A DNA stretch of 64,000 nt from Brachyhypopomus gauderio (lineage: Eukaryota > Chordata > Actinopteri > Gymnotiformes > Hypopomidae), in assembly GCF_052324685.1 (NCBI RefSeq), contig NW_027506916.1:769299-833298 (forward strand), read 5' to 3'. Of the stretch, positions 12,120 through 58,815 are shown in pieces. The translations under genes and the position numbers were made by a program. Under the pieces are notes generated by a model. That model searched no databases. It saw only the letters and a program-made list of their open reading frames with translations, and was not told where the DNA came from. Each line of letters opens with the position of its first letter. Within the stretch, counting starts at the first letter, position 1.

Positions 12120-13130
12120 GACCACGACTTGCAACACAACGGCTCCAGAGACAACGGCGTTAAACACATCAACAGTGTCCAGGAGAGCAAACGAAACATT
12201 ACAGGCCAAAAACATAAGCTGGGTCAGCACATCACTGCTGGATATTAAAACTAAACCATCACATGTGCAGGAAACGGTACGATGTGTGAAGTAATGATGA
12301 AGCGAGAGCCTCTCCACCAATCACAGGGCGAGCTACTGACCAGGAAAAAATCAGACTATTAAAAAACTCAGCAGGGAAGGATTCTAGAGTCCAGTTGCAG
12401 GGGTCAAGGGTCAGGAGTATTTTTAGTTTGGTCTAAGGCCCGCCCCCTCCCCCATGCTGGGGTTAACAGCAGTAAGCAGGTTATGGGTAGTGAACACAGC
12501 ACCAGCTGCTATGACAACACACATGTCCAATACCATGAGGGTGACAATATTCACATCAGGAGAGTCTGATTAGTCTGATTAAATGAGGACACTTGACATT
12601 TCTACATTAGGCTGATTTTTCCCTTTTAAAAGCTACTCTCCAACAGGATGTAAACAAACACACATTTCTGAAAGAGCTTCTGAACTTGGACTTGGGTCAT
12701 GGTGTGTGCACATGGTGTCATACAGATGAACAATATCAAACACATCAGTCATGACAAACACAGACACGTTACACACGTTAAACACTAAACACCTGCCATA
12801 ACAGCACTTTGCAGGGAAAAGGACTGCACGATTTTGCACTCTTTATTCTAGGGTGTCATTAACTGGATACAGTTTATTGTGCATTTGGGGGAAATACCAG
12901 TAAGCCGGACGACAACAGTCGAATCGCGGCACAAAAACTGGGATCAGTGCTGGTAGCTACAGCCCACGAACCCTAAAGTTACCTTAGATTAAACCACCTA
13001 CATCCTACACACAACCACAAATACGATACGCGCAGCACTTCAACTTAACACACACACACACACACCGAGAGTTTGGTGAAATAACGTGTGTGTGTGTCTG
13101 TGAGCGGCGGTTCACACTCATCACACCAGT
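12120..13130. other. No gene seen
   Basis: I see no coding exon on either strand. A minus-strand AATAAA lies near 12839-12844. The reading frames in this stretch have no recognisable protein character. Confidence 0.45.
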
Positions 13131-13463
13131 CTTCATCCTAAACGTCTAAACGCACTTTGGTGGGTGGACCTCGGGCCAAGCGTTACCGGCGAACCCACCC
13201 TGCTGTCCCCCCGCCCGGCTCCGGTACCGGTACCACGGCGCGCCCCGGTACCACGCGGGTGCACAAAGACTCGCGAGTCGCACGAGACACAGCGGTTCCT
13301 CGCGCTCTTCGGCGAGATCCGGTCAACTTCCACAACGTGTTGGAGCGCGTGGAAACATCTCGAGCCCTAAACGCGCCTTCCGTCACGCTGCCACGGACGC
13401 GCGCGACACAGCCCAACTTCAGCAGCGATGTGCGCGCGACACCAGCGCGAGCCCCGGTCTTAC

Positions 13464-13640
13464 CTGGCAGGTTGATGGAGCGGGTCGCGTGGCTCTCAGC
13501 TGCGCGCAGAAGTTTTCTAGCCCAAATGTCCCCTAGGCTCGGTATCGGTCCCCCTGCCGGTCTCCGGTCTCGGGACTCCGCCGCTCAACACACTGCGCGA
13601 GGACTGGGGAGTGACGTCAGCGCCACCGGGGCAGGACCGG
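13464..13640 (-). promoter_or_regulatory. CpG-rich promoter and probable first non-coding exon of an unidentified minus-strand gene
   Basis: The block from about 13150 to 13640 is GC-rich with many CpGs. A perfect CRE palindrome TGACGTCA lies at 13612-13619. Reading the minus strand from there, a strong 5' splice site CTGCCAG|GTAAGACC occurs at 13464, so a first exon of roughly 120-150 bp would end there. I found no coding exon to join to it, so the gene probably continues beyond the left edge or through the 1-13 kb region with exons I could not recognise. The plus-strand open frame across the island (218 codons) looks like GC-rich chance sequence. Confidence 0.5.
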
Positions 13641-13686
13641 CCCGCTCAATAGTGCGCGGTATCAGAAATACATTTAAACAAATAAT

Positions 13687-13689
<3 letters not shown>

Positions 13690-13724
<35 letters not shown>
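13690..13724. repeat. (CT)n microsatellite
   Basis: An uninterrupted CT tract lies just beyond the CpG-rich block. Confidence 0.95.
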
Positions 13725-13726
<2 letters not shown>

Positions 13727-14225
13727 GTGGCTGGCACGTGCCCTCTGCCTGCGAGTTCTCATCAACATACTGAAGTTTCCCGCAGTCACATTAGTACATT
13801 TGAACGCAGTTAAATCTTTGTGAAGCAGGCAAAAAACTGAATAACGTTACACTTAAGTGTTACAAACTTAACACTTTTTATTTTTTATGTTTACCGGCAA
13901 TGCATAACTCGTTGGTCTATAGTGTGTTCAGGGTGTTCTTTGGGTGTGAATGCGGACACACACGGAAACACAAGCCGCCTGGGCACGTGCTCCACCTCCA
14001 CAACCAGCTAGCAGTAATTATATTTTCACCCCGTTTTACCGTCGTATACCTGCAGTGGTATCTGCATCTTATTTATATTATTATTATATTATCTTATTTC
14101 CTTTTGGCGAGACTTGTCAACCTTTAAAACACATTTCAATTAAACCAGAATTCTTGATCCACAACTTTGTAATCATGCTGATTTATGAAGACACCCACCG
14201 TTCTTTATATTCAAGCCTAGACGTG

Positions 14226-14277: not shown

Positions 14278-15076
14278 AACAAAAGGTGCTTCACACGTCA
14301 ATGTTTACAAAGGACAGTACGATCCAGGAACTGGGACGCATCATGCGATCATACAAACAGAATCACAATTAACCTCATGCATAATTCATCAGCAGAGTCA
14401 CGATGTCATCCTCCAAATTCATACGGGTATGCATTATTGATTTGTCGTTATGAGCGGATTGAAATAAACAAACGTGGTAACATTCGGATTATTTCTCGAT
14501 TCAATTTCAATTGCATTACAAAGAAAAGCCAAACATGTAACAAATAAATGTCCTGTATATCCAGCAGTGGTTTGAGTCTAACTGATGGAGCCTCAGTGTT
14601 TGCATGTCATTCTTCTCCGTGAATTATTCTTTCATTCAGTAGTGTATGCAGGTTAACTGTAGTTCGTTATGCCTCCAGCCTGTTCAGCCGCCTGTTCACA
14701 TAACACGTGTATTTTTCCATAATTCAGTAGCACCCTCTGCTGTTCAAATGCTGTAACTACACGGTACATCGTTTTAAAAATACTTAAATTCTCCATAGAA
14801 ATAATTCTAAAATTATGTATTCCATATACATTATTTAAAAGGAGTAAAACTAATACAGTACTAAAATAAATATATTTATATTTTTACCGTTAACACAAAG
14901 TTCATGTGCAAAAGTATGCTATTGTGTGTCTCAAACGATGAGAAGAGGGAGTTCTGAAGAGGCTTTTCCGCATGGTTCTACAAACACACCCAGTTTCAGC
15001 ATCTTTGGAGATGAAGGCAGCGGTCCGGTGCTGGACGTTTAACGTTAGTTACGACTCTTCCGTCGCTGACGAGTTG

Positions 15077-16175
15077 TCATCTCTGGGCCAACTCCAGTTT
15101 AGCTTCTGACCTAACCGGAGCATCAACAACCTCCCCGCACATAAACTGCTCCTGCAAAATAAACAGCAGTTCATCAACTGGAGGCATTACGCAAACTCCA
15201 TACAGCTCCCGTCTGTGTGTGTGTGAGATAAATCCACCTAATCAGAGGTGGACATCCCAGGTTTAGAAACTAAAACTCCTTCCCAGGATTTTACTCCAAT
15301 TTGCTGGATTTTCTAATTAGTGCCATCCAGGTAAAATTAGTGGAATCAACACAATCCAGGAAGCCTGAGCAAAATCCTGGTGAGGACTTTTACTTTCTGA
15401 ACCTGGAATGCCCTCTGCACCCAACTCTACCCATCACTATGGATGAAGGCCGTTATAGTGGAGCTCACAGACACCGAGCACCGACAGTCACGTGCACACA
15501 AACGTCGCGGACGTCGGTGAAGCGGCACACGTGTCTTGCCTTGTCGTAGATGACTTTAATGATGAGTGAGCAGCTCGCACAGGTGGCCACCTCCTCTCCG
15601 CCCTGCAGATCCTCCTGGAAACACAGCCAAACACACTTACCCCACACACACCGGCCGAGCGCACTTACCCCACACACACACACCGGCCGAGCGCACTTAC
15701 CCCACACACACACACCGGCCGAGCGCACTTACCCCACACACACACACCGGCCGAGCGCACAACACCACACCGGCCGAGCGCACAACACCACACCGGCCGA
15801 GCGCACTTGCCCCACACACACCGGCCGAGCGCACTTGCCCCACACACACCGGCCGAACACACAACACACACACCGGCCGAACACACAACACACACACACC
15901 GGCCGAACACACAACACACACACACCGGCCGAACACACAACACACACACGTGTCTCCGTAACTTTGACAAATAACTCAAATGAGTTTCTGACTATAAAAA
16001 CAAGCGACCGAGACTAAGCCGGTTATACATCTACACACAGACATATTTAAACCGGGTGAAAACTTACTTTAGTGATGGCGAATCTGTCCCCGCAGGGACA
16101 CGGGAAGTAGTAGGTCTCTGTTTCTTCGTCATATTCAAAATCTTCTATTTCTACTTCGTCGTGAAAGACGGACAT
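15077..16175 (-). CDS. dph3: Diphthamide biosynthesis protein 3 (CSL zinc finger), three exons
   Basis: DPH3 is the small iron/zinc electron carrier that supports Dph1-Dph2 in the first step of diphthamide synthesis on elongation factor 2; its homologue Kti11 also serves Elongator. Exons on the minus strand are 16175-16068, 15614-15540 and 15151-15077, giving 85 aa (human about 82). Exon 1 encodes [20 protein letters not shown] and the CPCGD motif (C26, C28). Exon 2 encodes TCASCSL (C48, C51), completing the four-cysteine CSL finger. Exon 3 begins EQFMCGEVV. Splice sites: AAA|GTAAGT with TTCCAG for intron 1; AAG|GCAAGA, a GC donor, with TTTGCAG for intron 2. Reading through the GC donor gives an unrelated tail, whereas splicing restores the conserved DK-EQFMCGE junction. 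The start follows conserved family usage. Intron 1 (453 bp) is mostly minisatellite. The gene is intact. Confidence 0.97.
15632..15950. repeat. Minisatellite filling dph3 intron 1
   Basis: About eleven copies of a roughly 20-30-bp unit containing ACACCGGCCGAGCGCAC or ACACCGGCCGAACACAC. It lies wholly inside dph3 intron 1 and ends about 18 bp before the exon 2 acceptor. On the gene strand four units contain GGGGTAAGTG and two contain GGGGCAAGTG, both matching a 5' splice-site core. Confidence 0.92.
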
Positions 16176-16273
16176 GGTGAAAGTTTGGCTGGAGGATATT
16201 ATCTCACATGCGACACTACAGGACTGTCGCGGAGAAGTGACGTACCGCTGAGGCCGAGCAGGGAGGGTTTCTG

Positions 16274-16433
16274 CCACTAGAGGGCGCTGCTGCTGCCACG
16301 TGTTGCCACTAGAGGGCGCTGCTGCGGCCACGTGTTGCCAGTAGAGGGCGCTGCTGCTGCCACGTGTTGCCACTAAAGGGCGCTGCTGCGGCCACGTGTT
16401 GCCACTAGAGGGCGCTGCTGCGGCCACGTGCTC
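16274..16433. promoter_or_regulatory. Five-copy 32-bp array of CTCF-type and E-box motifs upstream of dph3
   Basis: Five units repeat at an exact 32-bp period. The motif CCACTAGAGGGCGC starts at 16274, 16306 and 16402, CCAGTAGAGGGCGC at 16338, and CCACTAAAGGGCGC at 16370. Four of the five fit the vertebrate CTCF core CCASYAGRKGGCRS and the fourth in order has one mismatch. Each unit is followed by CACGTG, the E-box bound by USF/MAX-type factors. The array starts about 100 bp upstream of the dph3 start codon, so it lies in or next to the promoter. Binding is inferred from sequence only. Confidence 0.8.
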
Positions 16434-17436
16434 CTAACTGCAAGTACCCGTCGCTGCAGAATCAAAAGTCCAGGGGGCGGAGCTGCATCTGATCCAACTC
16501 CTCCTACGTGTTGCTTACGTTTTCCGACCAGGAAATAGAAATCCCATAAATTCACCCTTTTACCGTTTAAAGATCTAAATGTTTTTTGAACGTTATTTAA
16601 ATAACACAATACACGTTTTTTAAGTTTACAAGAAAACGTAAAAGTGGACAGGAATAATGATCTGTGATTGCTAACATAATAAAGTATAGTACGTTTCTTA
16701 AATATGTACTATTTCATTTTTTTTACCTTTAATAAAAATTACTTTTTTCGTTAGGACAGTACACTTCAGGTGTACAGAATGGACAGTGGTATTTACTACA
16801 ACATGTAGTGCACTGCACAACTGAAAGCGTCTGTCCTTTTTTCAAAACCGTGATATGCATCTATAGGTGGATGGAAAAATATAAATAGCATTATATTAGT
16901 TTTTCAGTTTTTCGGTCTGTGGCGGGCGCTGCGTGCAGAGCGTTGAGGAGCGATTTCGATTGGTAGATCGTGCTCTCTGTCATTTTTTATTATTATTAAT
17001 TTTTTTGCTGATGCTGATCCAGCATGTCGCGTGCCAGTGATTATGCCTCGGCATGCCAACGGTGGCACGCATGCCATAGGTTATCCACCCCTGGTCTAAC
17101 TCATCATGTGATCCCTCCGCGACACGATTGACAGACAATACTGAAACGTGAAAAAAATAGGTCAGCATTCCCGTAAAGATGGAGCAGTCTAAGCCAGGGT
17201 CTAAACAAACTACGAAACGGTGGCGCTGAAAAGCTGAGAGAGAAAAAAGAAAAGCTGCAGAGGTTTTACTCACTGAGTGAACAATGTAGGTTTCAGTAGC
17301 TTTCCAGTTGTTTTTCCCCTGTATTTTGTCAGGGTAAAGTTGTTAAGTTTGTTAGTTATTTTGTTATGCCACTATGTTGTCCATATGACAATAAAAGCTG
17401 TCATATACAATATGTGCCATGTATAGATTCATATAC

Positions 17437-20982: not shown

Positions 20983-22352
20983 ATGCCTCGTCTGTATGCC
21001 TCACTGCTTCTGTGTGGTTTGGTGATGGGACTCTTCTACCTCACGGGTGAGTCTCCCAAATGTCCTCTACCTCTCGGGGAGTGTGAGTGGGAATGTGTAC
21101 TGTACTGTGACTGCCTCCAGAACTAGGAGAAAAAGTGTCAGACCTTCTCGAATGCAGAACAGGCTACGGCAGTAACGGATGCACTCTGAATGAAAGGGTC
21201 AGGTTCAGTAGTGGTTGGAAACTGCCAATAGGAGAAGACTGCAGCGTTAATCAGGAATTCAGCTGCGTTTAGCTGTCTAAGATAAACAGATGTTAAATGA
21301 CATCTGTTTATCTACAGTGTTAATCTGATCTTTTTCATGGTCTCTTGGAGATGCAAATACAGGTCTCAGATCTGTGAGTGTGCGGGTGCTATTCACCAGT
21401 GTGTAAGGCCCCACCCCCAGCTCCTGCTCTCTTGAGAACTTTTGCACATTAATGATCGGTAAAGACCCAGCCCAGCAGGTCCGTAGAGACCCGGCCCATC
21501 AGGTCTGTAGAGACCCTGCCCAGCAGGTCCGTAGAGAACCGTCCCATCAGGTCTGTAAAGACCCGTCCCAGCAGGTCCGTAGAGACCCGGCCCAGCAGGT
21601 CTGTAGAGACCCGGCCCATCAGGTCTGTAGAGAACCGTCCCAGCAGGTCTGTAAAGACCCAGCCCAGCAGGTCTGTAAAGACCCGTCCCAGCAGGTCTGT
21701 AGAGACCCGGCCCATCAGGTCTGTAGAGACCCGGCCCAGCAGGTCCGTAGAGAACCGTCCCAGCAGGTCTGTAAAGACCCAGCCCAGCAGGTCTTGTTAT
21801 ATGTTGATTTGTGTGTTTCTGCTTTTAATCCTCTGGCTGCTGTATCACTCCTTTTTTTCTTATTAGGGGCAGAAGAGAGTCCTGGTGAGTAATTATTAAT
21901 TCATTATGAGAATGCAATAATTATTAGTTTATTAGATTGTTACCTTTATATTTTTTTAAATAACAACAATTGTTATATTAAACAATTATTTCTCCTAATA
22001 ATTGAACTATCATTTGAATGTAATGCATTTTCTAACCAACACAAATGGTGCCTGTATGAAGTGTGTTGAGTGTGAGGTACCCACTGAGCACATGGTCTCC
22101 TGACTTCTTCACCTTTATTGCTTTTTGCCCCGCCCTCTGCTTTTCTTACTCACTGATTGGTCCTCAGCTGAGTCCAGGGAGAAGCGGGCCATGCCCAACT
22201 GGGCTCTGACCTCGTCCGACTTCTTCGCCTGGGTGGAGGACCTGCGAGCACATGCTGGTTATGAGCAGATCGAAGAGCTGGCCAAGACCTTCTGGGCCCA
22301 CTTCCCCTCGGCCAGCCGTCTGGGCTACGACCCGCCCGCCCCCGAAGAGTGA
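20983..22352 (+). CDS. otos: Otospiralin, three exons
   Basis: Otospiralin is a small secreted protein known from fibrocytes of the inner ear, needed for normal hearing in mammals; its biochemical role is not settled. Exons are 20983-21046, 21867-21884 (only 18 nt) and 22168-22352, joined in phase 1 with GT-AG sites, giving 88 aa (human 89). Residues 1-22 form a signal peptide with a hydrophobic core around YASLLLCGLVMGLFYL. After a short acidic stretch and a Lys-Arg pair comes the conserved domain from AMPNW (about 36-40) through SSDFF, YEQIEELAKTFWAHFP and LGYDPP, the family hallmark. Two further in-frame ATGs lie upstream at 20956 and 20965, within a short GAGGACCAT repeat, so the start is ambiguous by up to nine residues. 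I chose the third because it gives the cleanest signal peptide and length. Intron 1 contains a 24-bp minisatellite. Confidence 0.93.
21462..21795. repeat. 24-bp minisatellite in otos intron 1
   Basis: About fourteen copies of a 24-bp unit containing AGACCCGGCCCAGCAGGTC. Because 24 is a multiple of three, one frame stays open and runs into otos exon 2, giving a false 146-codon frame of eight-residue repeats (RDPAQQVC type). Confidence 0.92.
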
Positions 22353-26025: not shown

Positions 26026-29000
26026 CCTGTATATGTTCCTGTATATGTTCCTGTGTACATGTTCCTGTATATGTTCCTGTATATGTTCCTGTATATGTTC
26101 CTGTACATGTTCCTGTATATGTTCCTGTATATGTTCCTGTGTACATGGTCCTGTATATGTTCCTGTATATGTTCCTGTATATGTTCCTGTGTACATGTTC
26201 CTGTACATGTTCCTGTATATGTTCCTGTGTATATGTTCCTGTGTACATGTTCCTGTATATGTTCCTGTATATGTTCCTGTATATGTTCCTGTGTACATGT
26301 TCCTGTATATGTTCCTGTATATGTTCCTGTGTACATGTTCCTGTATATGTTCCTGTATATGTTCCTGTGTACATGTTCCTGTATATGTTCCTGTATATGT
26401 TCCTGTGTACATGTTCCTGTATATGTTCCTGTATATGTTCATGTGTACATGTTCCTGTATATGTTCCTGTGTACATGTTCCTGTATATGTTCCTGTGTAC
26501 ATGTTCCTGTGTACATGGTCCTGTATATGTTCCTGTGTACATGTTCCTGTATATGTTCCTGTATATGTTCCTGTGTACATGGTCATGTATATGTTCCTGT
26601 GTACATGTTCCTGTATATGTTCCTGTGTACATGTTCCTGTATATGTTCCTGTATATGTTCCTGTGTACATGTTCCTGTATATGTTCCTGTGTACATGTTC
26701 CTGTATATGTTCCTGTATATGTTCCTGTGTACATGTTCCTGTATATGTTCCTGTATATGTTCCTGTGTACATGTTCCTGTATATGTTCCTGTATATGTTC
26801 CTGTACATGTTCCTGTATATGTTCCTGTATATGTTCCTGTGTACATGGTCCTGTATATGTTCCTGTATATGTTCCTGTGTACATGTTCCTGTACATGTTC
26901 CTGTATATGTTCCTGTGTATATGTTCCTGTGTACATGTTCCTGTATATGTTCCTGTGTACATGTTCCTGTATATGTTCCTGTATATGTTCCTGTATATGT
27001 TCCTGTGTACATGTTCCTGTATATGTTCCTGTATATGTTCCTGTGTACATGTTCCTGTATATGTTCCTGTATATGTTCCTGTATATGTTCCTGTGTACAT
27101 GTTCCTGTATATGTTCCTGTATATGTTCCTGTGTACATGTTCCTGTATATGTTCCTGTATATGTTCCTGTGTACATGTTCCTGTATATGTTCCTGTATAT
27201 GTTCCTGTGTACATGTTCCTGTATATGTTCCTGTATATGTTCCTGTGTACATGTTCCTGTATATGTTCCTGTATATGTTCCTGTGTACATGTTCCTGTAT
27301 ATGTTCCTGTGTACATGTTCCTGTATATGTTCCTGTGTACATGTTCCTGTGTACATGGTCCTGTATATGTTCCTGTGTACATGTTCCTGTATATGTTCCT
27401 GTATATGTTCCTGTGTACATGGTCATGTATATGTTCCTGTGTACATGTTCCTGTATATGTTCCTGTGTACATGTTCCTGTATATGTTCCTGTATATGTTC
27501 CTGTGTACATGTTCCTGTATATGTTCCTGTGTACATGTTCCTGTATATGTTCCTGTATATGTTCCTGTGTACATGTTCCTGTATATGTTCCTGTGTACAT
27601 GTTCCTGTATATGTTCCTGTATATGTTCCTGTATATGTTCCTGTGTACATGGTCCTGTATATGTTCCTGTATATGTTCCTGTGTACATGTTCCTGTACAT
27701 GTTCCTGTATATGTTCCTGTGTACATGTTCCTGTATATGTTCCTGTATATGTTCCTGTATATGTTCCTGTGTACATGTTCCTGTATATGTTCCTGTATAT
27801 GTTCCTGTGTACATGTTCCTGTATATGTTCCTGTATATGTTCCTGTATATGTTCCTGTGTACATGTTCCTGTATATGTTCCTGTATATGTTCCTGTGTAC
27901 ATGTTCCTGTATATGTTCCTGTATATGTTCCTGTGTACATGTTCCTGTATATGTTCCTGTGTACATGTTCCTGTATATGTTCCTGTATATGTTCCTGTGT
28001 ACATGTTCCTGTATATGTTCCTGTGTACATGTTCCTGTATATGTTCCTGTGTACATGTTCCTGTGTACATGGTCCTGTATATGTTCCTGTGTACATGTTC
28101 CTGTATATGTTCCTGTATATGTTCCTGTGTACATGTTCCTGTATATGTTCCTGTGTACATGTTCCTGTATATGTTCCTGTATATGTTCCTGTGTACATGT
28201 TCCTGTATATGTTCCTGTGTACATGTTCCTGTATATGTTCCTGTATATGTTCCTGTGTACATGTTCCTGTATATGTTCCTGTATATGTTCCTGTATATGT
28301 TCCTGTACATGTTCCTGTATATGTTCCTGTATATGTTCCTGTGTACATGGTCCTGTATATGTTCCTGTATATGTTCCTGTGTACATGTTCCTGTACATGT
28401 TCCTGTGTACATGTTCCTGTATATGTTCCTGTATATGTTCCTGTATATGTTCCTGTATATGTTCCTGTGTACATGTTCCTGTATATGTTCCTGTATATGT
28501 TCCTGTGTACATGTTCCTGTGTACATGTTCCTGTACATGTTCCTGTGTACATGTTCCTGTATATGTTCCTGTGTACATGTTCCTGTATATGTTCCTGTAT
28601 ATGTTCCTGTGTACATGTTCCTGTGTACATGTTCCTGTACATGTTCCTGTGTACATGTTCCTGTACATGTTCCTGTGTACATGTTCCTGTATATGTTCCT
28701 GTATATATGTTCCTGTATATGTTCCTGTGTACATGTTCCTGTACATGTTCCTGTGTACATGTTCCTGTATATGTTCCTGTATATGTTCCTGTGTACATGG
28801 TCCTGTATATGTTCCTGTATATGTTCCTGTATATGTTCCTGTGTACATGTTCCTGTATATGTTCCTGTGTACATGTTCCTGTATATGTTCCTGTGTACAT
28901 GTTCCTGTATATGTCCCTGTATATGTTCCTGTGTACATGGTCCTGTATATGTTCCTGTGTACATGTTCCTGTATATGTTCCTGTATATGTTCCTGTGTAC

Positions 29001-29385
29001 ATGTTCCTGTATATATGTTCCTGTATATGTTCCTGTATATGTTCCTGTATATGTTCCTGTGTACATGGTCCTGTATATGTTCCTGTGTACATGGTCCTGT
29101 ATATGTTCCTGTGTACATGTTCCTGTATATGTTCCTGTATATGTTCCTGTGTACATGTTCCTGTATATGTTCCTGTGTACATGTTCCTGTATATATGTTC
29201 CTGTATATGTTCCTGTATATGTTCCTGTATATGTTCCTGTACATGTTCCTGTATATGTTCCTGTGTACATGTTCCTGTATATGTTCCTGTATATGTTCCT
29301 GTGTATATGTTCCTGTGTATATGTTCCTGTATATGTTCCTGTACATGTTCCTGTACATGTTCCTGTATATGTTCCTGTATATGTT
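26026..29385. repeat. 3.36-kb satellite of ATGTTCCTGTAT (12 bp) and ATGTTCCTGTGTAC (14 bp) units
   Basis: About 265 units of two lengths alternate irregularly. Neither unit contains a stop codon in any of the six frames, so frames of more than 1100 codons run through the array on both strands (repeating MFLY, CSCI, VPVY on plus; IQEH, YRNI, TGTY on minus). This is a property of the unit, not evidence of a protein. Segment 26281-26740 recurs at 27121-27580 with one visible difference, so the array also has longer-range duplications. Confidence 0.97.
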
Positions 29386-29815
29386 CACCTGGAGAGTAAC
29401 ATTGCAGTCGGAGCCTACAATACCAGCATCGCTGCTCCGACACGGAATGAAAGCCTGGCGTTCATCAACAGACATTTACAGTGACAATATCATAACCCAG
29501 AACTTTCATTTTTACCTTTACTTAGTCTGATTGTGTGATTTGTGTGTGACTTGTGTATTTGTCTGTATTTTGTGTAATCTGTGTGTTAACGGGCCGCCCA
29601 ATGGAGGATGGGTTCCCTTTTGAGTCTTGGTTCTCCCGAGGTTTCTTCCTATTCCCCACTATCTTAGGGAGTTTTTCCTCGCCACTGTCGCCCTTGGCTT
29701 GCTCATTAGGGTTCTGGACCCGTAGTATTGTTAACCTTTTAAATCCTGTAAGGCGCTTTGTGACAACATGTGTTGTGAAAAGCGCTATACAAATAAACTT
29801 TGATTGATTGATTGA
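29386..29815 (+). mobile_element. Short retroposon with L2-type 3' tail, inserted in the satellite
   Basis: The element begins TTCACCTGGAGAGTAAC, contains CCGCCCAATGGAGGATGGGT and GGGAGTTTTTCCTCGCCACT, and ends AGCGCTATACAAATAAAC followed by (TTGA)n, the typical L2 terminus. Satellite units resume right after it at about 29816. A second copy with the same 5' end is at 52440-52893. It may be a SINE using L2 machinery, or a truncated second L2 subfamily. It has no coding part. Confidence 0.75.
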
Positions 29816-32440: not shown

Positions 32441-35400
32441 CTAGCAGGTGATCTGACTAAACCCTGACAGGACGGCCTTGCCCTCCTTGGAAAGGTTGTC
32501 CATGGACGTGGAGGTCATTCTTCTGACCAGGAGTTTCTCGTAGAGTAGAGGGTGATAGGCTCCCAGCGTACAAGCCACGTCACGGTAGTGTTCATAGTAG
32601 TGACACAGTGGTGTGTGTTTCTTGGAGGGGATGAACTCATACACATCGACCTGCTCACACAGACTGAGCATTACAACAATTCCTGAAACAGAACCAGAAA
32701 TACGACATACATGAACATTTTAATTCTGATGTTCGTTGTCTGGACTAGTTACTGCATGAGAAAAAGAAATGTGGACAAATCGCTCTCTCACAGACAAACA
32801 CCACCCAACATTGAACCCCACCCAACACAGGACACCACCTAACACAGAACCCCACCCAACACTGAACCCCACCCAACACAGGACACCACCCAACACTGAA
32901 TCCCACCCAACACTGAATCCCACCCAACACTGGACCCCACCCAACACAGGACACCACCTAACACAGAACCCCACCCAACACAGGACATCACCTAACACAG
33001 GACATCACCTAACACAGAACCCCACCTAACACAGAACCCCACCTAACACAGAACCCCACCTAACACAGGACACCACCTAACACAGGACATCACCTAACAC
33101 AGGACACCACCTAACACAGGACACCACCTAACACAGAACCCCACCTAACACAGGACACCACCCAACACAGAACCCCACCCAACACAGGACACCACCTAAC
33201 ACAGAACCCCACCCAACACAGGACACCACCTAACACAGGACACCACCTAACACAGGACATCACCTAACACAGGACACCACCTAACACAGAACCCCACCTA
33301 ACACAGAACCCCACCTAACACAGGACACCACCTAACACAGGACACCACCCAACACTGAACCCCACCTAACACAGGACACCACCTAACAGAACCCCACCTA
33401 ACACAGAAGACCACCTAACACAGGACACCACCTAACACAGAACCCCACCTAACACAGAACACCACCTAACACAGAACACCACCTAACACAGAACCCCACC
33501 TAACACAGGACACCACCTAACACAGGACACCACTTAACAAAGGACACCACCTAACACGGAACCCCACCTAACACAGAACACCACCTAACAAAGGACACCA
33601 CCTAACACAGAACCCCACCTAATACAGGACACCACCTAACACAGAACCCCACCTAATACAGGACACCAGCTAACATAGAACCCCATCTAACACAGGACAC
33701 CAGCTAACACAGAACCCCACCTAACATAGGACACCACCTAACACAGAACACCACATTACACAGAAGAGAACCCCACCTAACATAGGACACCACCTAACAC
33801 AGAACCCCACCTAACACAGGACACCACCTAACACAGGACACCACCTAACACAGAACCCCACCTAATACAGGACACCACCCAACACAGGACATCACCTAAC
33901 ACAGAACCCCACCTAACACAGGACACCACCTAACACAGGACACCACCCAACACAGGACACCACCTAACACAGGACACCACCCAACACAGGACACCAGCTA
34001 ACACAGAACCCCACCCAACACAGGACACCACCTAACACAGGACACCACCTAACACAGAACCCCACCCAACACAGGACACCACCTAACACAGGACACCACC
34101 TAACACAGAACCCCACCTAACACAGGACACCACCTAACACAGAACCCCACCCAACACAGGACACCACCTAACACAGGACACCACCTAACACAGAACCCCA
34201 CCCAACACAGGACACCACCTAACACAGAACCCCACCCAACACAGGACACCACCTAATACAGGACACCACCCAACACTGAACCCCACCCAACACTGAACCC
34301 CACCCAACACAGGACACCACCTAACACAGAACCCCACCCAACATACAGGACACCACCCAACACTGAACCCCACCTAACACAGAACCCCACCCAACACAGG
34401 ACACCACCTAACACAGAACCCCACCCAACACAGGACACCACCTAACACAGGACACCACCTAACACAGAACCCCACCTAACACAGGACACCACCTAACACA
34501 GGACACCACCTAACACAGGACATCACCTAACACAGGACACCACCTAACACAGAACCCCACCTAACACAGAACACCACCTAACACAGGACACCACCTAACA
34601 CAGAACCCCACCTAACACAGAACACCACCTAACACAGGACACCACCTAACACAGGACACCACCCAACACTGAACCCCACCTAACACAGGACACCACCTAA
34701 CACAGAACCCCACCTAACACAGGACACCACCTAACACAGGACATCACCTAACACAGGACACCACCTAACACAGAACCCCACCTAACACAGAACCCCACCT
34801 AACACAGGACACCACCTAACACAGGACACCACCCAACACTGAACCCCACCTAACACAGGACACCACCCAACACTGAACCCCACCTAACACAGGACACCAC
34901 CTAACACAGAACCCCACCTAACACAGAAGACCACCTAACACAGGACACCACCTAATACAGAACCCCACCTAACACAGAACACCACCTAACACAGAACCCC
35001 ACCTAACACAGAACCCCACCTAACACAGGACACCACCTAACACAGGACACCACTTAACAAAGGACACCACCTAACACGGAACCCCACCTAACACAGAACA
35101 CCACCTAACAAAGGACACCACCTAACACAGAACCCCACCTAATACAGGACACCACCTAACACAGAACCCCACCTAATACAGGACACCAGCTAACATAGAA
35201 CCCCATCTAACACAGGACACCAGCTAACACAGAACCCCACCTAACATAGGACACCACCTAACACAGAACACCACATTACACAGAAGAGAACCCCACCTAA
35301 CATAGGACACCACCTAACACAGAACCCCACCTAACACAGGACACCACCTAACACAGGACACCACCTAACACAGAACCCCACCTAATACAGGACACCACCT

Positions 35401-38400
35401 AATACAGGACACCACCCAACACAGGACATCACCTAACACAGAACCCCACCTAACACAGGACACCACCTAACACAGGACACCACCCAACACAGGACACCAC
35501 CTAACACAGGACACCAGCTAACACAGGACACCACCCAACACAGGACACCAGCTAACACAGGACACCACCTAACACAGGACACCACCCAACACAGAACACC
35601 ACCTAACACAGAACACCACCTAACACAGGACACCACCTAACACAGGACACCACCTAACACAGAACCCCACCTAATACAGGACACCACCTAACACAGAACC
35701 CCACCTAATACAGGACACCACCTAACACCTGACACCACCTAACACAGAACCCCACCTAATACAGGACACCACCTAACACAGAACCCCACCTAATACAGGA
35801 CACCACCTAACACAGGACACCACCTAACACAGAACCCCACCTAATACAGGACACCACCTAACACAGAACCCCATCTAACACAGGACACCAGCTAACATAG
35901 AACCCCATCTAACACAGGGCACCAGCTAACACAGAACACCACCTAACACAGAACCCCACCTAATACAGGACATGTACATACAGTCTGCGTGTGCGTTCAC
36001 TGTGTCTGCTGGCGATTAGACACCAAGATATATCAGAAATATTAGAGGGTTTGTGAATCATGTCATTTGAAGAGAGAATATAAAATTCAAATTCATTAGT
36101 ACAGATTTCTTCCTCTTAGCAATGTAATCCAACCCCTGGACTTATTGACATAAAGTCAAATCATATAATTCAGCATTTGACCCAGTTAATCTCACAAACA
36201 AACCTGCTGAACAGATTAAAACTAAAAACTCACGAGCACACTGCACACTGCAAGATAATGGCTGAAACTGACATGCATGAATTTGACATCCTCTCTAATA
36301 CGCAAAAATGAGAGGTCAGTGCAGCAGGTCCGTGTCCTACCGCTGAAATAGTAACGTCACGAACCAAAAATGTTTGCCATCGTACAAATGTGTTTGTGTG
36401 TGTATGTGTGTGACCTGAGTGTGTGTGCGCTGGTACTTGTTAATACTGTATGTGTGTGAGTATGTGTGCAATGTAAGAGTCTCTACTATGCAAACTTCAG
36501 AAGGAAGTGTAAATGTAGCTCAGCAGTCTGACCTAAACACAAACAGCGTCGCAGTCGTTTATGTTAATTACTATTTACCGCCCCCCTGGTTCATACTCTG
36601 AGTTCTTGCAGGAGTTTTCAGACTTCCTGTCTCATGTAGTGCTATCAGCCGATAAGGTGATTATAGTTGGTGATTTTAATATCCATTTTGAAAATCTATG
36701 TGACTCTTTTAGCATTCATTTTCAAGCAATTCTTGATTCAATGGGTATCACTCAGAATGTGGTGGGTCCTACGCATAACTGTAGTCATACTTTAGACTTG
36801 GTCTTGTCATTTGGTATTGACATATCCAGTTTAGCAATTCTTCCTCAGAGTGAGGCTGTTTCTGACCACAGCCTCATAACGTACGAGTTGTGTTTAACTG
36901 ACTGTGTTCATCGACCACCCCGCTACCAAATTAAACGAGCTATAACACCCAGCACCATAGCCGCGCTCACTGATATTTTACCGGGTCTGACAAACACTGA
37001 TCCACTTGTAGCTCCGGAAGGACTAGAGCGTTTCACCGAGCACGTCGAGACTTCCCTTCGTACAGCTTTAGACAAAGTTGCACCACTACGATATAAGAGA
37101 GCCACGGAGAGAAGAATAGCGCCATGGTACAATGAGCACACGCGTAGCCTCAAACGAGCCGCGCGGATCCTGGAACGTAAATGGCGAAATATGAAGTTAG
37201 AAGTGTATAGACTATCATGGAAAAGCAGCCTTATTGAATATAAGCATGCCCTCAATACGGCAAAGTCCTTATACTTATCGGCCTTAATAGAAAAACATAA
37301 AAACAATTCAGGACTCCTTTTTAAAACTGTTTCCAGCCTTACGAGGAGTCACGAACAAATCAATTATCTAATTCCACTAGAGTGTAGCAGTAACAATTTT
37401 ATGAAGTTCTTTAATGATAAGATTGATAAAATTAGGGAAAAAATTAGTGCTATCTCAGAGCCTGTCAACATGCCAATGCACCTTGACAGCTGTCTGGTCA
37501 GCTCTGATGCCCTGTTAGAGTCCTTCTCCCCAATTGGTCGTGAGGAGCTTATTTCACTGGTGAAATCTGCTAAACCCTCCACATGCATACTAGATGCTGT
37601 ACCAACCCATCTACTTAAAGAATTACTGCATAGCAATGTAGAACCGTTGCTTACTATAATAAACTATTCTCTGAGCCTGGGCTATGTGCCCAGATCATTT
37701 AAACTTGCGGTCATCAAGCCGCTAATTAAAAAACCTGGTCTTAACCCCCAGGAACTGTCCAACTATAGGCCAATTTCTAATCTGTCATTCATATCCAAAT
37801 TTTTAGAGAAAGTAGTTTCTTCTCAACTCTCTTCCTTCTTACAGACAGACCATGTTTTAGAGTTATTTCAGTCTGGATTTAGAGCTCATCACAGCACTGA
37901 AACAGCACTAACTAAAGTACTGAATGATCTCTTAATATCCTCTGATAAAGAAGGATAATTAAAGAATCCTCTGATTCTTTTCTCATACTGCTAGACCTCA
38001 GTGCTGCTTTTGACACCATTGACCATAATATTCTACTTACTAGGCTGGAGACACTCATTGGCATAAGAGGTCAAGCACTCTCCTGGTTCAGGTCCTACCT
38101 GACAGATCGTTACCAATTTGTACTAGTAAATAATGAATGCTCAGAGCATTCTAAAGTAAAGTATGGTATCCCACAAGGATCTGTACTGGGCCCCATATTA
38201 TTCTCATTATATATGCTACCACTGGGCACTATCATTCGTAGGCATGGTATTAGCTTCCATTGCTACGCAGATGATACTCAGTTGTATATATCTTCTAATC
38301 CAGATGATATCACTACAACTCGCAAGATTGAGAACTGCGTCCAGGACATTAAAAACTGGATGGCATCTAATTTTCTTCAACTGAATTCTGACAAGACTGA

Positions 38401-48246: not shown

Positions 48247-49695
48247 TAATCAGAATCAGAATCGCCTTTATTGTCATTATAATTTGCATTATAATGAAAT
48301 TTGCGTCTACTCCAAGGGGCTTGTTGGGACAATAAATACACACAATACAGACAATAAATACACTCAATGACATAGAATGATCCAAATATACAACTGGTTC
48401 AGTGGAATGCTTACGTGATATGTTGGATATTGCACAAGCTATTTACAGTGTTATGTTACATATATTGCATGCGGGAAGTATTTTACATGGGTTGTATTGC
48501 ACAAGGATTGGGAATTTACATTATTGCCGTTATTTACATGTTGTTTAGTGCAGTGATGGCTCTAGGGTAAAAGCTGTCCCTGAGCCTACTTGTGTGAGTT
48601 TTGTGCAACCTGTACCGTCTGCCTGAGGGTAACAGGTCAAACAGGTGATTGCTGGGGTGGGATGAGTCTTTGGTGATGCTGAGGTAGCGAGAGGTGGCAA
48701 AGTCCTCCAGGCTGGGCAGGGAGCAACCAGTGATCCCCTGGGCCGTGTTGATCACCCTCTGCAGCGCGTTTTTATCTGCAGCTGAGCACCCTCCGTACCA
48801 TGTCGTGATGCAATACACGAGGATGCTCTCATTGATGGATCTGTAAAAGAGCACCAACAGTTTCTCCTCCATCTTGTTCCTCTTGAGCACTCTCAGGAAG
48901 TGGAGTCACTGCTGGGCTTTCTTCACCACCGTTGTGTTTGCAGACCAGGAGAGGCTGTCAGTGATCTGCACACCCAGGAACCTGATGGAGCTGACCCTTT
49001 CAACGCAGACTCCGTTTATGAGAAGCTGGGCTGGGTCAGTCCTGCCCTTCCTGAAGTCCAGAATTAGTTATTTGGTTTTTTGAATGTTCAGTGGCAGGTT
49101 GTTGGCAGAGCACCACCTGGACAGCCGGTCTATCTCATCCCTGTAATCCGACTCATCTCCCCCTGAGATGAGCCCGACCACGGTGGTGTCATCTGCAAAC
49201 TTTATGATGGTGTTAGAAAGATGAGTCGGGGAGCAGTCGTAGGTGTAGAGGGTGAACAGGAGAGGGCTCAGTACACAACCTTGGGGGGAGCCAGTGCTGA
49301 GTGAGATGGTGGAGGAGAGGTGGGGGCCTAATTTAACAGACTGTGGGCGGTCTGTGAGAAAATTCTGTATCCACTGGCAGGTGGGGGTGGAGATACCCAG
49401 AGCCGTGAGTTTGTGGACCAGAATCCTCGGGATGATGTGGTTGAATGCTGAGCTGAAGTCCAGGAAGAGCATTCTCACATAGCTCCCCCTATGCTCCAGG
49501 TGACTCAGCGCAGTGTGGAGCGTGATGTTTATGGCGTCCTCTGTGGAGCGGTTTGCCTTATAGGCGAACAGATGGGGGTCCAGGTTGGGAGGTAGACAGA
49601 CTTTCAGGTGTTTAGAGACCAGTCTTTCAAAGCACTTCATCATGACTACCGGTGTAAGTGCAATAGGCCTGGAGTTGTTCCTGACATCTGCGTGT
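48247..49695 (-). mobile_element. Rex1/Babar-like LINE, 5'-truncated
   Basis: The minus-strand element ends in TGACAATAAAGGCGATTCTG with a short ATTCTG tail, and carries the reverse transcriptase and the region after it. The endonuclease part is missing. An hAT-type MITE has inserted about 30 bp beyond its 5' end (49728). The terminal protein part (LLPSGRRYRLHKTHTSRLRD) is typical of fish Rex1-like elements as I remember them. Confidence 0.8.
48534..49643 (-). pseudogene. Rex1-like reverse transcriptase, two in-frame stops
   Basis: A single frame of 370 codons runs through [23 protein letters not shown] (catalytic Asp), [17 protein letters not shown] and [10 protein letters not shown] (FADD in place of YADD). 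After a stop at about 49068 it continues in the same frame through LILDFRKGR, then a second stop at about 48909, then RNKMEEKLLVLFYRS and WYGGCSAADKNALQRV. No frameshift was needed. Confidence 0.85.
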
Positions 49696-51012: not shown

Positions 51013-51317
51013 TGTTATAACGTATTCATAAATGATCATAAATTAACACTAGGACTCCCAGCATTTTAATTCCAAACTTTTTCTACCTGTCTCCACCAGG
51101 GGGCAGTTGTGGGGACATTTGCATCCCATTAGGCCACCCTTTGTTATGTACATGCAGCCACTGGATGGAGGGGGGGGTGGGGGGTGATGGTGTGAACCAG
51201 TGATCAGTTCATTGTTCAGGTGGATGTGTTTACTGACTCAGATAGAGAAGAAAAAACTCTGGCCTCTCCTTGGGGAGATTGTCTGTGTGGGTACATATAT
51301 GAGTAAATTTATGTTGG

Positions 51318-53482: not shown

Positions 53483-54600
53483 CATGTCAAAGTCAAAGTC
53501 AAATATATTTGTATAGCGCTTTTCACAACACACGTTGTCACAAAGCAGCTTTACAATCGTATGGGTCCAGATCCCTAATGAGCAAGTCAAAGGCGACAGT
53601 GGCGAGAAAAAACTCCCTAGATGGTGGGGATTAGGAAGAAACCTCGGGAGGACCAAGACTCAAAAGGGAACCCATCCTCCATTGGGCGGCCCGTTAACAC
53701 AAGTCCGTGGTCGCAGGGTGGTTTCAAAGTTCCACAGCAACAGTCAAGGCTCCTGTTCCCCGGCCAAGCAGCCACAGTCCCCTCGGTGCAGGTGGTGGGC
53801 CTCAGGCGGTGGGCCTCAGGTGGTGGGCCTCAGGCGGGCCAGCAGCAGCACGACCCTCCGTGGCAATGGCACATCCAACCCCGGCATCAGCACATCCACC
53901 GACAAGCCAGACCATTCCCCAGGTGCCTGCAGGTGCCTGTATCCAATCGTCTTGGGTGGAAGCATGCAAAAAAAATAGACAATACAGACTGAGTGGACAT
54001 GAATTTAATCCACCATTGATTTAAATGTACATAGCTCACGTGCCAGTGATCAGCATGTGGCTCCGGCAGGCTAATCTATAGCAGCATAACTAAAGGGAGG
54101 GGTTCAGAGGTGACCACAGGCATGAGGGCTCACTGAGACATTGCTTTCCAGTCAAGTCATAGTCACAAATAGAGTGATGCCAAGACACAGCTGGATGACA
54201 GCATCAACATCTCAGATCACCAGAAATCTCAACGTCTGGGGGCCCCCAAGCCCCTACACCTTACAAGGGGGATATTAGCTGAAGGCTTGATTAAATAGAT
54301 GAGTATTAAGTCTAGATTTAAAGATTGGAACTGTGTCAGAATCTCGGATTGGAGCTGGAAGGCTATTCCATAACTGAGGGGCTTTAAAAGAGAAAGCTCT
54401 GCCTCCGGCTGTAGTTTTACTAATTTTTGGAACTAGGAGAAATCCAGCATTTTGGGAGCGCAAAGGGCGAGATGGGTTGTAGTAATCAATGAGTTCACTC
54501 AGATATTGTGGGGCAAGACCATTTAACGCCTTATAGGTTAACAGAAGAACTTTAAATTCAATGTGATATTTAATCGGAAGCCAGAGTAATGCGGCATGCA
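53483..54600 (-). mobile_element. L2-clade LINE 3' half, minus strand
   Basis: The minus strand encodes the last part of ORF2 (WLPIKYHIEFKVLLLTYKAL through [11 protein letters not shown], stop at 54275), then the 3' UTR and the AGCGCTATACAAATATATTT (GACTTT)n end at 53483. Over the last 81 residues it differs from the copy ending at 39106 at only four positions, so both come from one young subfamily. Upstream of about 54600 the LINE sequence stops. Confidence 0.88.
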
Positions 54601-55049
54601 CCCCTCTAAACTTACACAAACCATATAACATCCAGGGTTTTGTACACCAGAATAAAATAAAGTATGTATATCAGATAAAAGATTATACCTACTATTACAT
54701 AATAGATATGAAGTAATTATTTGAAAGCCCTTTCAGTAAGTGTTGGCACCTGTAATTCAGCACAGAACATTTTTTTGTTATTGTTTAATTAAGGAAATTG
54801 AAATGGCTTTAATGTTTAGAATACACTATCACTAAGAATGACACTATTAAGTGTTTGAAAGCTTTAGCATTCCTAGCATACCTTCAGATCCTGCAAGTCA
54901 TTCTGAAGTTAATTACCAACACCACATGACGTGTCAAGACTTGCAATTTAATGCCAATAACAAGCAATGCTTTCACTCATTGGGTACTTAAATTTGCATT
55001 GTGGGATATGGGACACCTCTCACTGGAACAAAGTGTATTATAGCTTCCC
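54601..55049. other. No gene seen
   Basis: AT-rich non-coding sequence. Confidence 0.5.
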
Positions 55050-58205: not shown

Positions 58206-58815
58206 ATTTAGAAAACCCTTGAAAACCCTTGTGCAAGTAAGTTAGCACAGCTGAAAACAGTTTTGCTGATTAGAGAAGCTATAAAACTGACCTTCCTTTG
58301 AGCTAGTTGAGCTATCTGGAGCATTACAATTGTTGGTTCGATTAAACTCACAAAATGGCCAGAAAAAAAACAACTTTCAATTGAAATTCGACAGTCTATT
58401 CTTGTTCTGAGAAATGAAGTCTATTCCATGCGAGACATTGCCAAGAAACTGAAGATTTCCTACAATGGTGTGTACTACTCCCTTCAGAGGAGAACACAGA
58501 CAGGCTCTAACCAGAGTAGAAGGAGAAGTGGAAGGCACCGCTGCACAACTGAGCAAGAAGACAACATTAGAGTCTCAGGTTTGAGAAATCGACACCTCAC
58601 AGGTCCTCAACTGGCAGCTTCATTTAAATAGTACCCGCAAAACGCCAGTGTCAACGTCTACAGTGAAAAGGCGACTCCGGGATGCTGGCCTTCAGGGCAG
58701 AGTGGCAAAGAAAAAGCCATATCTGAGACTGGCTAATAAAAGAAAAAGATTAATATGGGCAAAAGAACACAGACATTGGACAGAGGAAGATTGGAAAAAA
58801 GTGTTATGGACAGTG
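58206..58815 (+). mobile_element. Tc1-like transposon, 5' half of transposase
   Basis: Leader sequence, then the helix-turn-helix region of a Tc1 transposase (MRDIAKKLKISYNGVYYSLQ, frame from 58428), interrupted near 58629, then STSTVKRRLRDAGLQGRVAK and KRLIWAKEHRHWTEEDWKKV from 58648. It stops at the codons for VLWT, just before the first catalytic Asp, and runs into (TA)n. The DDE catalytic part is missing, so it cannot be active. Confidence 0.88.

Follow-up and report, generated by a model that had tools for sequence, protein, structure and literature searches.

Introduction

Pairs of CTCF motifs <100 bp apart produce double shifts as well as double footprints, and active promoters are enriched for them (PMC4562119, PMC5973138). 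In the double CTCF site of TSP50, 33–58 bp lie between the two motifs (PMC4562119). The human SLC6A4 VNTRs, with units of 22–23 bp and 16–17 bp, bind CTCF in ChIP, and one of them is located ~1.2 kb upstream of the TSS and varies in copy number (PMC2848977). Three tandem copies of one CTCF site insulated better than one (PMC12885311). According to the same source, the CTCF core turns its downstream side towards the loop interior, and a secondary upstream motif, located 2–7 bp upstream of the core and contacted by zinc fingers 9–11, occurs in ~13% of CTCF sites.

In mouse cells, activation by CTCF is rarely associated with promoters whose motifs are all reverse; upon CTCF loss, 2% of them fell, compared to 29% of the promoters with forward or no motifs (PMC12695661). 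Activating promoter CTCF is located at a median of about 79 bp upstream of the TSS, and CTCF further upstream goes with antisense repression, where orientation matters less (PMC12695661). In zebrafish embryos, no clear CTCF orientation bias was reported at TSSs, and in the ctcf mutant at 24 hpf CTCF was present at the TSS of 68.8% of the down-regulated genes versus 12.3% of the up-regulated ones (PMC8438036). Human DPH3 shares a bidirectional promoter with OXNAD1, which is transcribed the other way from a start ~170 bp from the DPH3 TSS; a single human base is described as lying at distances of 8 bp and 163 bp from the TSSs of DPH3 and OXNAD1, respectively (PMC4742151). Here, we describe a short-period tandem array of candidate CTCF sites at the dph3 promoter of the gymnotiform fish Brachyhypopomus gauderio.

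Results

The dph3 gene and its promoter region

The window analyzed is a stretch of 64,000 nucleotides, in which three coding exons of dph3 were modelled on the minus strand (Table 1). The tblastn queries were human DPH3, OTOS, and part of OXNAD1. The open frames of exon 1 (43.1 bits) and exon 2 (30.5 bits) scored above the PF05207 cut-off of 29.2 bits. Exon 3 had no Pfam match of its own and was absent from the tblastn matches of human DPH3. The spliced product of 85 aa is 100% identical, over its full length, to the Brachyhypopomus gauderio "diphthamide biosynthesis protein 3-like", which ranked first among 1291 proteins at E ≤ 1e-10, 120 of which were listed. Intron 2 appears to start with GC (AAG/GCAAGA, 15534–15540) and not with GT. 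Intron 1 holds a second minisatellite that is CA- and CCGGCCGA-rich (15634–15949).

A repeat array is located 97–256 bp upstream of the dph3 ATG. The CRE-like element between the array and the ATG is a possible core-promoter element, and a GC box is present at 16474, to the right of the array. An ETS site as at human DPH3 was considered and rejected, as the string matched at 16233 is without the GGAA core and only the CRE-like part is retained. The two 400-bp tiles over the array have CpG observed/expected ratios of 0.94 and 0.88, compared to 0.47 for the window; the repeat itself contributes part of this excess. The array contains 13 CpGs. None of its variable columns is a CpG-to-TpG or CpG-to-CpA change, and the shared CpGs are undecayed. 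This pattern fits a promoter that is unmethylated in the germline, without proving it.

With four open frames searched against Pfam, the only other gene identified was otos, near 22.2 kb. A CpG-rich stretch at 13001–13800 (GC up to 0.67, CpG observed/expected up to 1.25) may be another promoter. A very long minisatellite at 26026–29386 consists of about 264 copies of the 12-bp unit CCTGTATATGTT and mechanically yields open frames of >1100 codons on each of the two strands. Another long one, at 32798–35972, has about 186 copies of a 17-bp unit and a strong strand skew. Open frames at 48537–48905, 54278–54670, and 58311–58628 resemble, by eye, pieces of LINE proteins and of a Tc1-like transposase.

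Table 1. Coordinates of the features in the window, with the basis of each assignment.
Feature	Position	Strand	Basis
dph3 exon 3, coding to stop TGA	15077..15151	-	spliced-product identity; stop read from sequence
dph3 exon 2, donor GC not GT	15540..15614	-	PF05207; tblastn with human DPH3; splice sites
dph3 exon 1, coding from ATG	16068..16175	-	tblastn with human DPH3; PF05207; donor GTAAGT
CRE-like TGACGTA, between array and ATG	16238..16244	+	sequence; function inferred
Minisatellite, 5 x 32-bp unit	16272..16431	+	TRF
CTCF motif unit 1, 22.5 bits	16271..16289	+	MA0139.1 counts
E-box CACGTG unit 1	16297..16302	.	sequence
CTCF motif unit 2, 23.2 bits	16303..16321	+	MA0139.1 counts
E-box CACGTG unit 2	16329..16334	.	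sequence
CTCF motif unit 3, 22.5 bits	16335..16353	+	MA0139.1 counts
E-box CACGTG unit 3	16361..16366	.	sequence
CTCF motif unit 4, 15.7 bits, weakened by G to A	16367..16385	+	MA0139.1 counts
E-box CACGTG unit 4	16393..16398	.	sequence
CTCF motif unit 5, 23.2 bits	16399..16417	+	MA0139.1 counts
E-box CACGTG unit 5	16425..16430	.	sequence
Moderate CTCF motif, 16.7 bits, beyond 3' end of dph3	14728..14746	-	MA0139.1 counts
Otospiralin (otos) exon	22179..22349	+	PF15182, E 1.3e-14; tblastn with human OTOS

Structure of the array

The array consists of five head-to-tail units and, as a head-to-tail repeat with a unit between 10 and 100 bp, is a minisatellite (TRF: 16272–16430, period 32, 5.0 copies, 94% matches, 0% indels). 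The TRF consensus unit is TGCCACTAGAGGGCGCTGCTGCGGCCACGTGT. Pattern search located CCASYAGRKGGCRS on the plus strand: the matches at 16274, 16306, 16338, and 16402 are exact, whereas that at 16370 has a single mismatch. With up to one mismatch allowed, this pattern matched 10 times on both strands of the window; the shuffle mean was 1.16, and 10 matches were reached in none of 100 shuffles. The first-pass annotation had described five motif starts at exact 32-bp spacing, CACGTG after each motif, a minisatellite origin, and a position at the dph3 start. The sequence bears out all of this, including an intact CACGTG in each of the five units. As the copies arose by duplication, the five sites represent one event and not five coincidences or five independent pieces of evidence. 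The array unit had no matches in viral contigs, as expected for fish DNA.

Only four columns of the 32-bp unit are variable. Column 6 is C, except for G in unit 3, column 9 is G, except for A in unit 4, and column 32 is T, except for C in unit 5. Column 23 reads T, G, T, G, and G in units 1–5. The alternation of T and G in this column suggests that at least one duplication step copied a pair of units.

CTCF matrix scores

The units were scored with counts after the JASPAR matrix MA0139.1, whose column sums are consistent; the independent consensus pattern of the first-pass annotation gives the same picture. Four of the five 19-mers scored 22.5 or 23.2 bits out of a maximum of 26.1 bits (Table 1). 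Units 1, 2, 3, and 5 occupy ranks one to four among all CTCF matches of the window, followed by a match of 19.0 bits at 51090, and the highest score over 100 dinucleotide shuffles of the window was 19.7 bits. With the array removed, six matches of >15 bits remained, versus 0.5 per shuffle, and these are taken as the ordinary CTCF-site background of a vertebrate genome. In unit 4, A replaces a G that accounts for 903 of the 911 counts used at this position, which costs 7.4 bits. This unit should bind CTCF poorly.

The proposed identity of the repeated motif therefore held for units 1, 2, 3, and 5, which carry the vertebrate CTCF core motif (22.5–23.2 bits), and not for unit 4, which reached only 15.7 bits. 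The four high-scoring units are convincing CTCF sequences and look able to bind the protein. The array core has CCACTAG, followed by GGG, in common with the IL3 insulator core as quoted in PMC12885311. The moderate minus-strand motif past the 3' end of dph3 and the array would together make a divergent, boundary-like pair around the gene, but a single site of this strength could be due to chance.

E-boxes and spacing of the sites

Successive CTCF 19-mers are separated by 13 bp, and alternate ones by 45 bp (starts 64 bp apart). With at least two motifs <100 bp apart, here at a period of 32 bp, the array shows the motif spacing of clustered CTCF sites (2xCTS). No lower limit for the spacing of CTCF sites was found in the portions of the literature consulted, so the steric exclusion of neighbouring units has the standing of an inference. 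The 13-bp gap is tighter than the 33–58 bp of TSP50, which makes simultaneous filling of all five units unlikely. Neighbouring units would hinder each other and are probably not filled together, whereas alternate units could be.

Each E-box starts 7 bp past a CTCF 19-mer and, in units 1–4, ends directly (0 bp) before the next one. It thereby takes up the place of the secondary upstream CTCF motif. The 10-bp secondary motif itself is absent from the array: the best agreement was 5 of 10 bases for unit 1 and 6 of 10 for units 2–5, which is background, as 6 or more of 10 were reached at 28% of 5000 random positions in the window. CACGTG is not enriched in the window as a whole (25 occurrences, five of them in the array; shuffle mean 17.8, maximum 30 in 50 shuffles). 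The combination of CTCF motif and E-box found in HS4-type insulators is present, with CACGTG in all five units. Poly-G (VEZF1-type) G-runs are a further feature of such insulators; the array contains none, its longest G-run being three.

It had also been argued that the 32-bp period, being close to three helical turns, would line the sites up on the same side of the helix. With 10.5 bp per turn, one repeat unit deviates from three turns by 17 degrees, and four steps deviate by 69 degrees. We rejected this argument, as helical phase has little meaning for a zinc-finger protein that wraps around the DNA. CTCF is described as having no preferred 10.5-bp positioning relative to the TSS, a statement that concerns the TSS and not the spacing between CTCF sites (PMC11269187).

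Origin of the array and neutral expectation

Minisatellites with a period of 10–100 bp form 61 merged loci in the window and cover 15.3 kb, not counting loci whose units were all simple repeats. Because 45% of random 260-bp stretches touch one of these loci, a minisatellite beside a gene start is unsurprising. Among the 61 loci, the dph3 array alone has a consensus unit above 10 bits for CTCF. A random origin of such a unit is expected ~1e-5 times (p of 4.7e-9, multiplied by 1274 bases of distinct units and two strands), so the seed of the array was most likely a real CTCF site.

The preservation of the units was compared with a neutral simulation, in which three private substitutions were placed at random on the array and column 23 was treated as old. 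At least four sites of at least 22 bits were retained in 64% of the runs, five intact E-boxes in 54%, and both in 27%. Since 27% of the neutral runs preserve the sites equally well, the array sequence gives no evidence of constraint, and selection on the units is not supported. For the same reason, the earlier proposal of a repeat-driven regulatory gain is not shown by these data.

Discussion

Orientation and proposed mechanism

All five CTCF motifs are on the plus strand and dph3 is on the minus strand; the motifs thus point away from the gene. The direction was assigned by the usual CCA...GGC convention, which we assume to be "forward" in the literature. Relative to dph3, five of five motifs are reverse, not forward as in the activating promoter CTCF of PMC12695661. 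For comparison with the median of about 79 bp from the TSS given there, it should be kept in mind that the distance of the array, 97–256 bp, is measured from the ATG.

Our best account, to which we assign a probability of about 0.4, is that a promoter-proximal CTCF site was duplicated and that the array, with alternate units probably filled, acts as a directional barrier. One such site with its neighbouring E-box would have been tandemly duplicated to five, giving a homotypic CTCF cluster. In vivo, CTCF would bind two or three alternate units at once: units 1, 3, and 5 are strong and 64 bp apart, unit 4 is weak, and unit 2 would compete. Such alternate filling would keep at least one CTCF on the array most of the time. 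Because all motifs face right, away from dph3, they would stop cohesin that comes from the right at the dph3 promoter and would impede antisense initiation upstream of the gene. The E-box that abuts the following core lies where zinc fingers 8–11 of CTCF are expected to pass, so CTCF would face competition from an E-box factor (USF, MYC/MAX, or another), or such a factor would bind at units without CTCF. Against this account stand the missing secondary upstream motif, which only ~13% of CTCF sites carry in any case, a preservation within the neutral expectation, and the zebrafish data (PMC8438036).

Alternative explanations

The main rival of the barrier account is that an ordinary CTCF site of the promoter gave rise to a neutral minisatellite; one of the sites may function, but the additional copies would contribute little or nothing and vary in number by drift. 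We regard it as a serious, if doubtful, possibility. The abundance of minisatellites, with 61 loci touching 45% of random 260-bp stretches, is what this explanation would expect, as are the damaged unit 4 and a preservation that does not go beyond neutrality. It is less at ease with the uniqueness of the array, the sole locus of 61 above 10 bits, and with its four near-optimal units, although neither observation shows a use for the extra copies. A classical insulator or loop anchor, bound over the whole array on one face and with E-box factors adding an HS4-like barrier activity, appears unlikely. This is the strong form of the first-pass proposal. The strong cores in four of five units agree with it, as do the moderate motif of divergent orientation on the opposite strand (14728) and the joint presence of CTCF and USF motifs in the chicken HS4 core (PMC2736623). 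A model of mouse and human folding also gives more insulation with more sites, there placed 180 bp apart (PMC11828424). The assignment is weakened by the absence of the secondary upstream motif of insulator sites, by the poor unit 4, by a spacing tighter than that of the TSP50 double site (PMC4562119), and by a longest G-run of three, where HS4 has poly-G elements as VEZF1 sites.

Direct activation, in which CTCF or E-box factors bound to the array raise dph3 transcription, is made less likely by the reverse orientation of the motifs, and we consider it quite improbable. The location upstream of a housekeeping-type promoter and the intact E-boxes in all units would suit an activator. However, CACGTG is not enriched in the window, and its five copies in the array follow from duplication. 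That zebrafish genes falling without CTCF often have CTCF at their TSS (PMC8438036) speaks for activation; by this analogy, the zebrafish mutant figures fit activation better than a barrier, which leaves some room for an activating role. It is very hard to credit that the array acts as an RNA or coding element, within the 5' untranslated region of dph3 or an extended protein. It does lie within 256 bp of the ATG, and a minus-strand frame is open from 16433 into dph3, but the array has no ATG on either strand, 32 is not a multiple of three, and the identical B. gauderio protein has 85 aa, without any extension. On folding, the 260-nt minus strand is less stable than most shuffles (z +1.54; 194 of 200 fold at least as well), and folding thus gives no support to an RNA element.

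A possible former divergent side of the promoter

The array is on the side of dph3 where OXNAD1 starts in human. The part of the human OXNAD1 protein used as query gave no tblastn match at E up to 0.01 in the window, whereas human DPH3 and OTOS did match in the same search. A bolder reading of the locus than the directional barrier would be a CTCF ladder tunable by copy number. Since one period of this ladder cannot hold a full CTCF footprint, adjacent units and their intervening E-boxes would be mutually exclusive and form a competitive switch. Such a switch may have closed off a formerly divergent side of the dph3 promoter and left the gene transcribed in one direction. We consider this reading a long shot; the sealing of a former divergent side is its boldest part and has the contrast between human and the window with respect to OXNAD1 as its one basis.

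If CTCF binds, the array is a natural test of CTCF packing density, of whether the effects of several copies of a strong site accumulate at a promoter, and of whether minisatellite copy number tunes promoter direction or insulation. Length alleles, if they exist, would make up a dose series that needs no engineering. Without CTCF binding, the array is an ordinary minisatellite in a minisatellite-rich fish genome.

Comparison with known systems

CTCF-binding tandem repeats are already known, and the array at dph3 is distinguished from them by its short, regular period and by an E-box for each site. Among the best matches in the open-licence literature, there was no short-period CTCF minisatellite in fish, which is weak evidence of absence.

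As in 2xCTS promoters such as TSP50, at least two CTCF motifs lie <100 bp apart at a promoter (PMC4562119, PMC5973138). In contrast to TSP50, the array has five sites in strict 32-bp register with gaps of 13 bp, compared to 33–58 bp (PMC4562119). It is also found in a fish; CTCFL/BORIS arose in early amniote evolution (PMC5973138). The SLC6A4 VNTRs are likewise minisatellites with short units; their binding is documented by ChIP, whereas the CTCF sites described here are known from sequence (PMC2848977). Unlike in those VNTRs, each unit of the array has a near-consensus CTCF site together with an E-box (PMC2848977). DXZ4, the 1q23.3 tRNA VNTR, and D4Z4 are tandem arrays with CTCF binding in their units, and the dph3 array resembles them as a tandem array of candidate sites. 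Their units measure 3 kb, 7.3 kb, and 3.3 kb, respectively, compared to 32 bp.

The protocadherin clusters also have several tandem CTCF sites near promoters; there, the sites are spread over large gene clusters, whereas those of the array all lie within 160 bp (PMC7087399). The 250-bp core of the chicken beta-globin HS4 resembles the array in combining CTCF and USF-type motifs in one element (PMC2736623). In the array, five CTCF motifs alternate with five E-boxes, the longest G-run is three, and insulation is only putative, which sets it apart from HS4. At the chicken c-myc promoter, where it was first described, CTCF was found on three regularly spaced direct repeats in the 5' flank, an arrangement like that at dph3; the c-myc repeats are of the CCCTC type and number three, compared to five units here (cited in PMC6945661).
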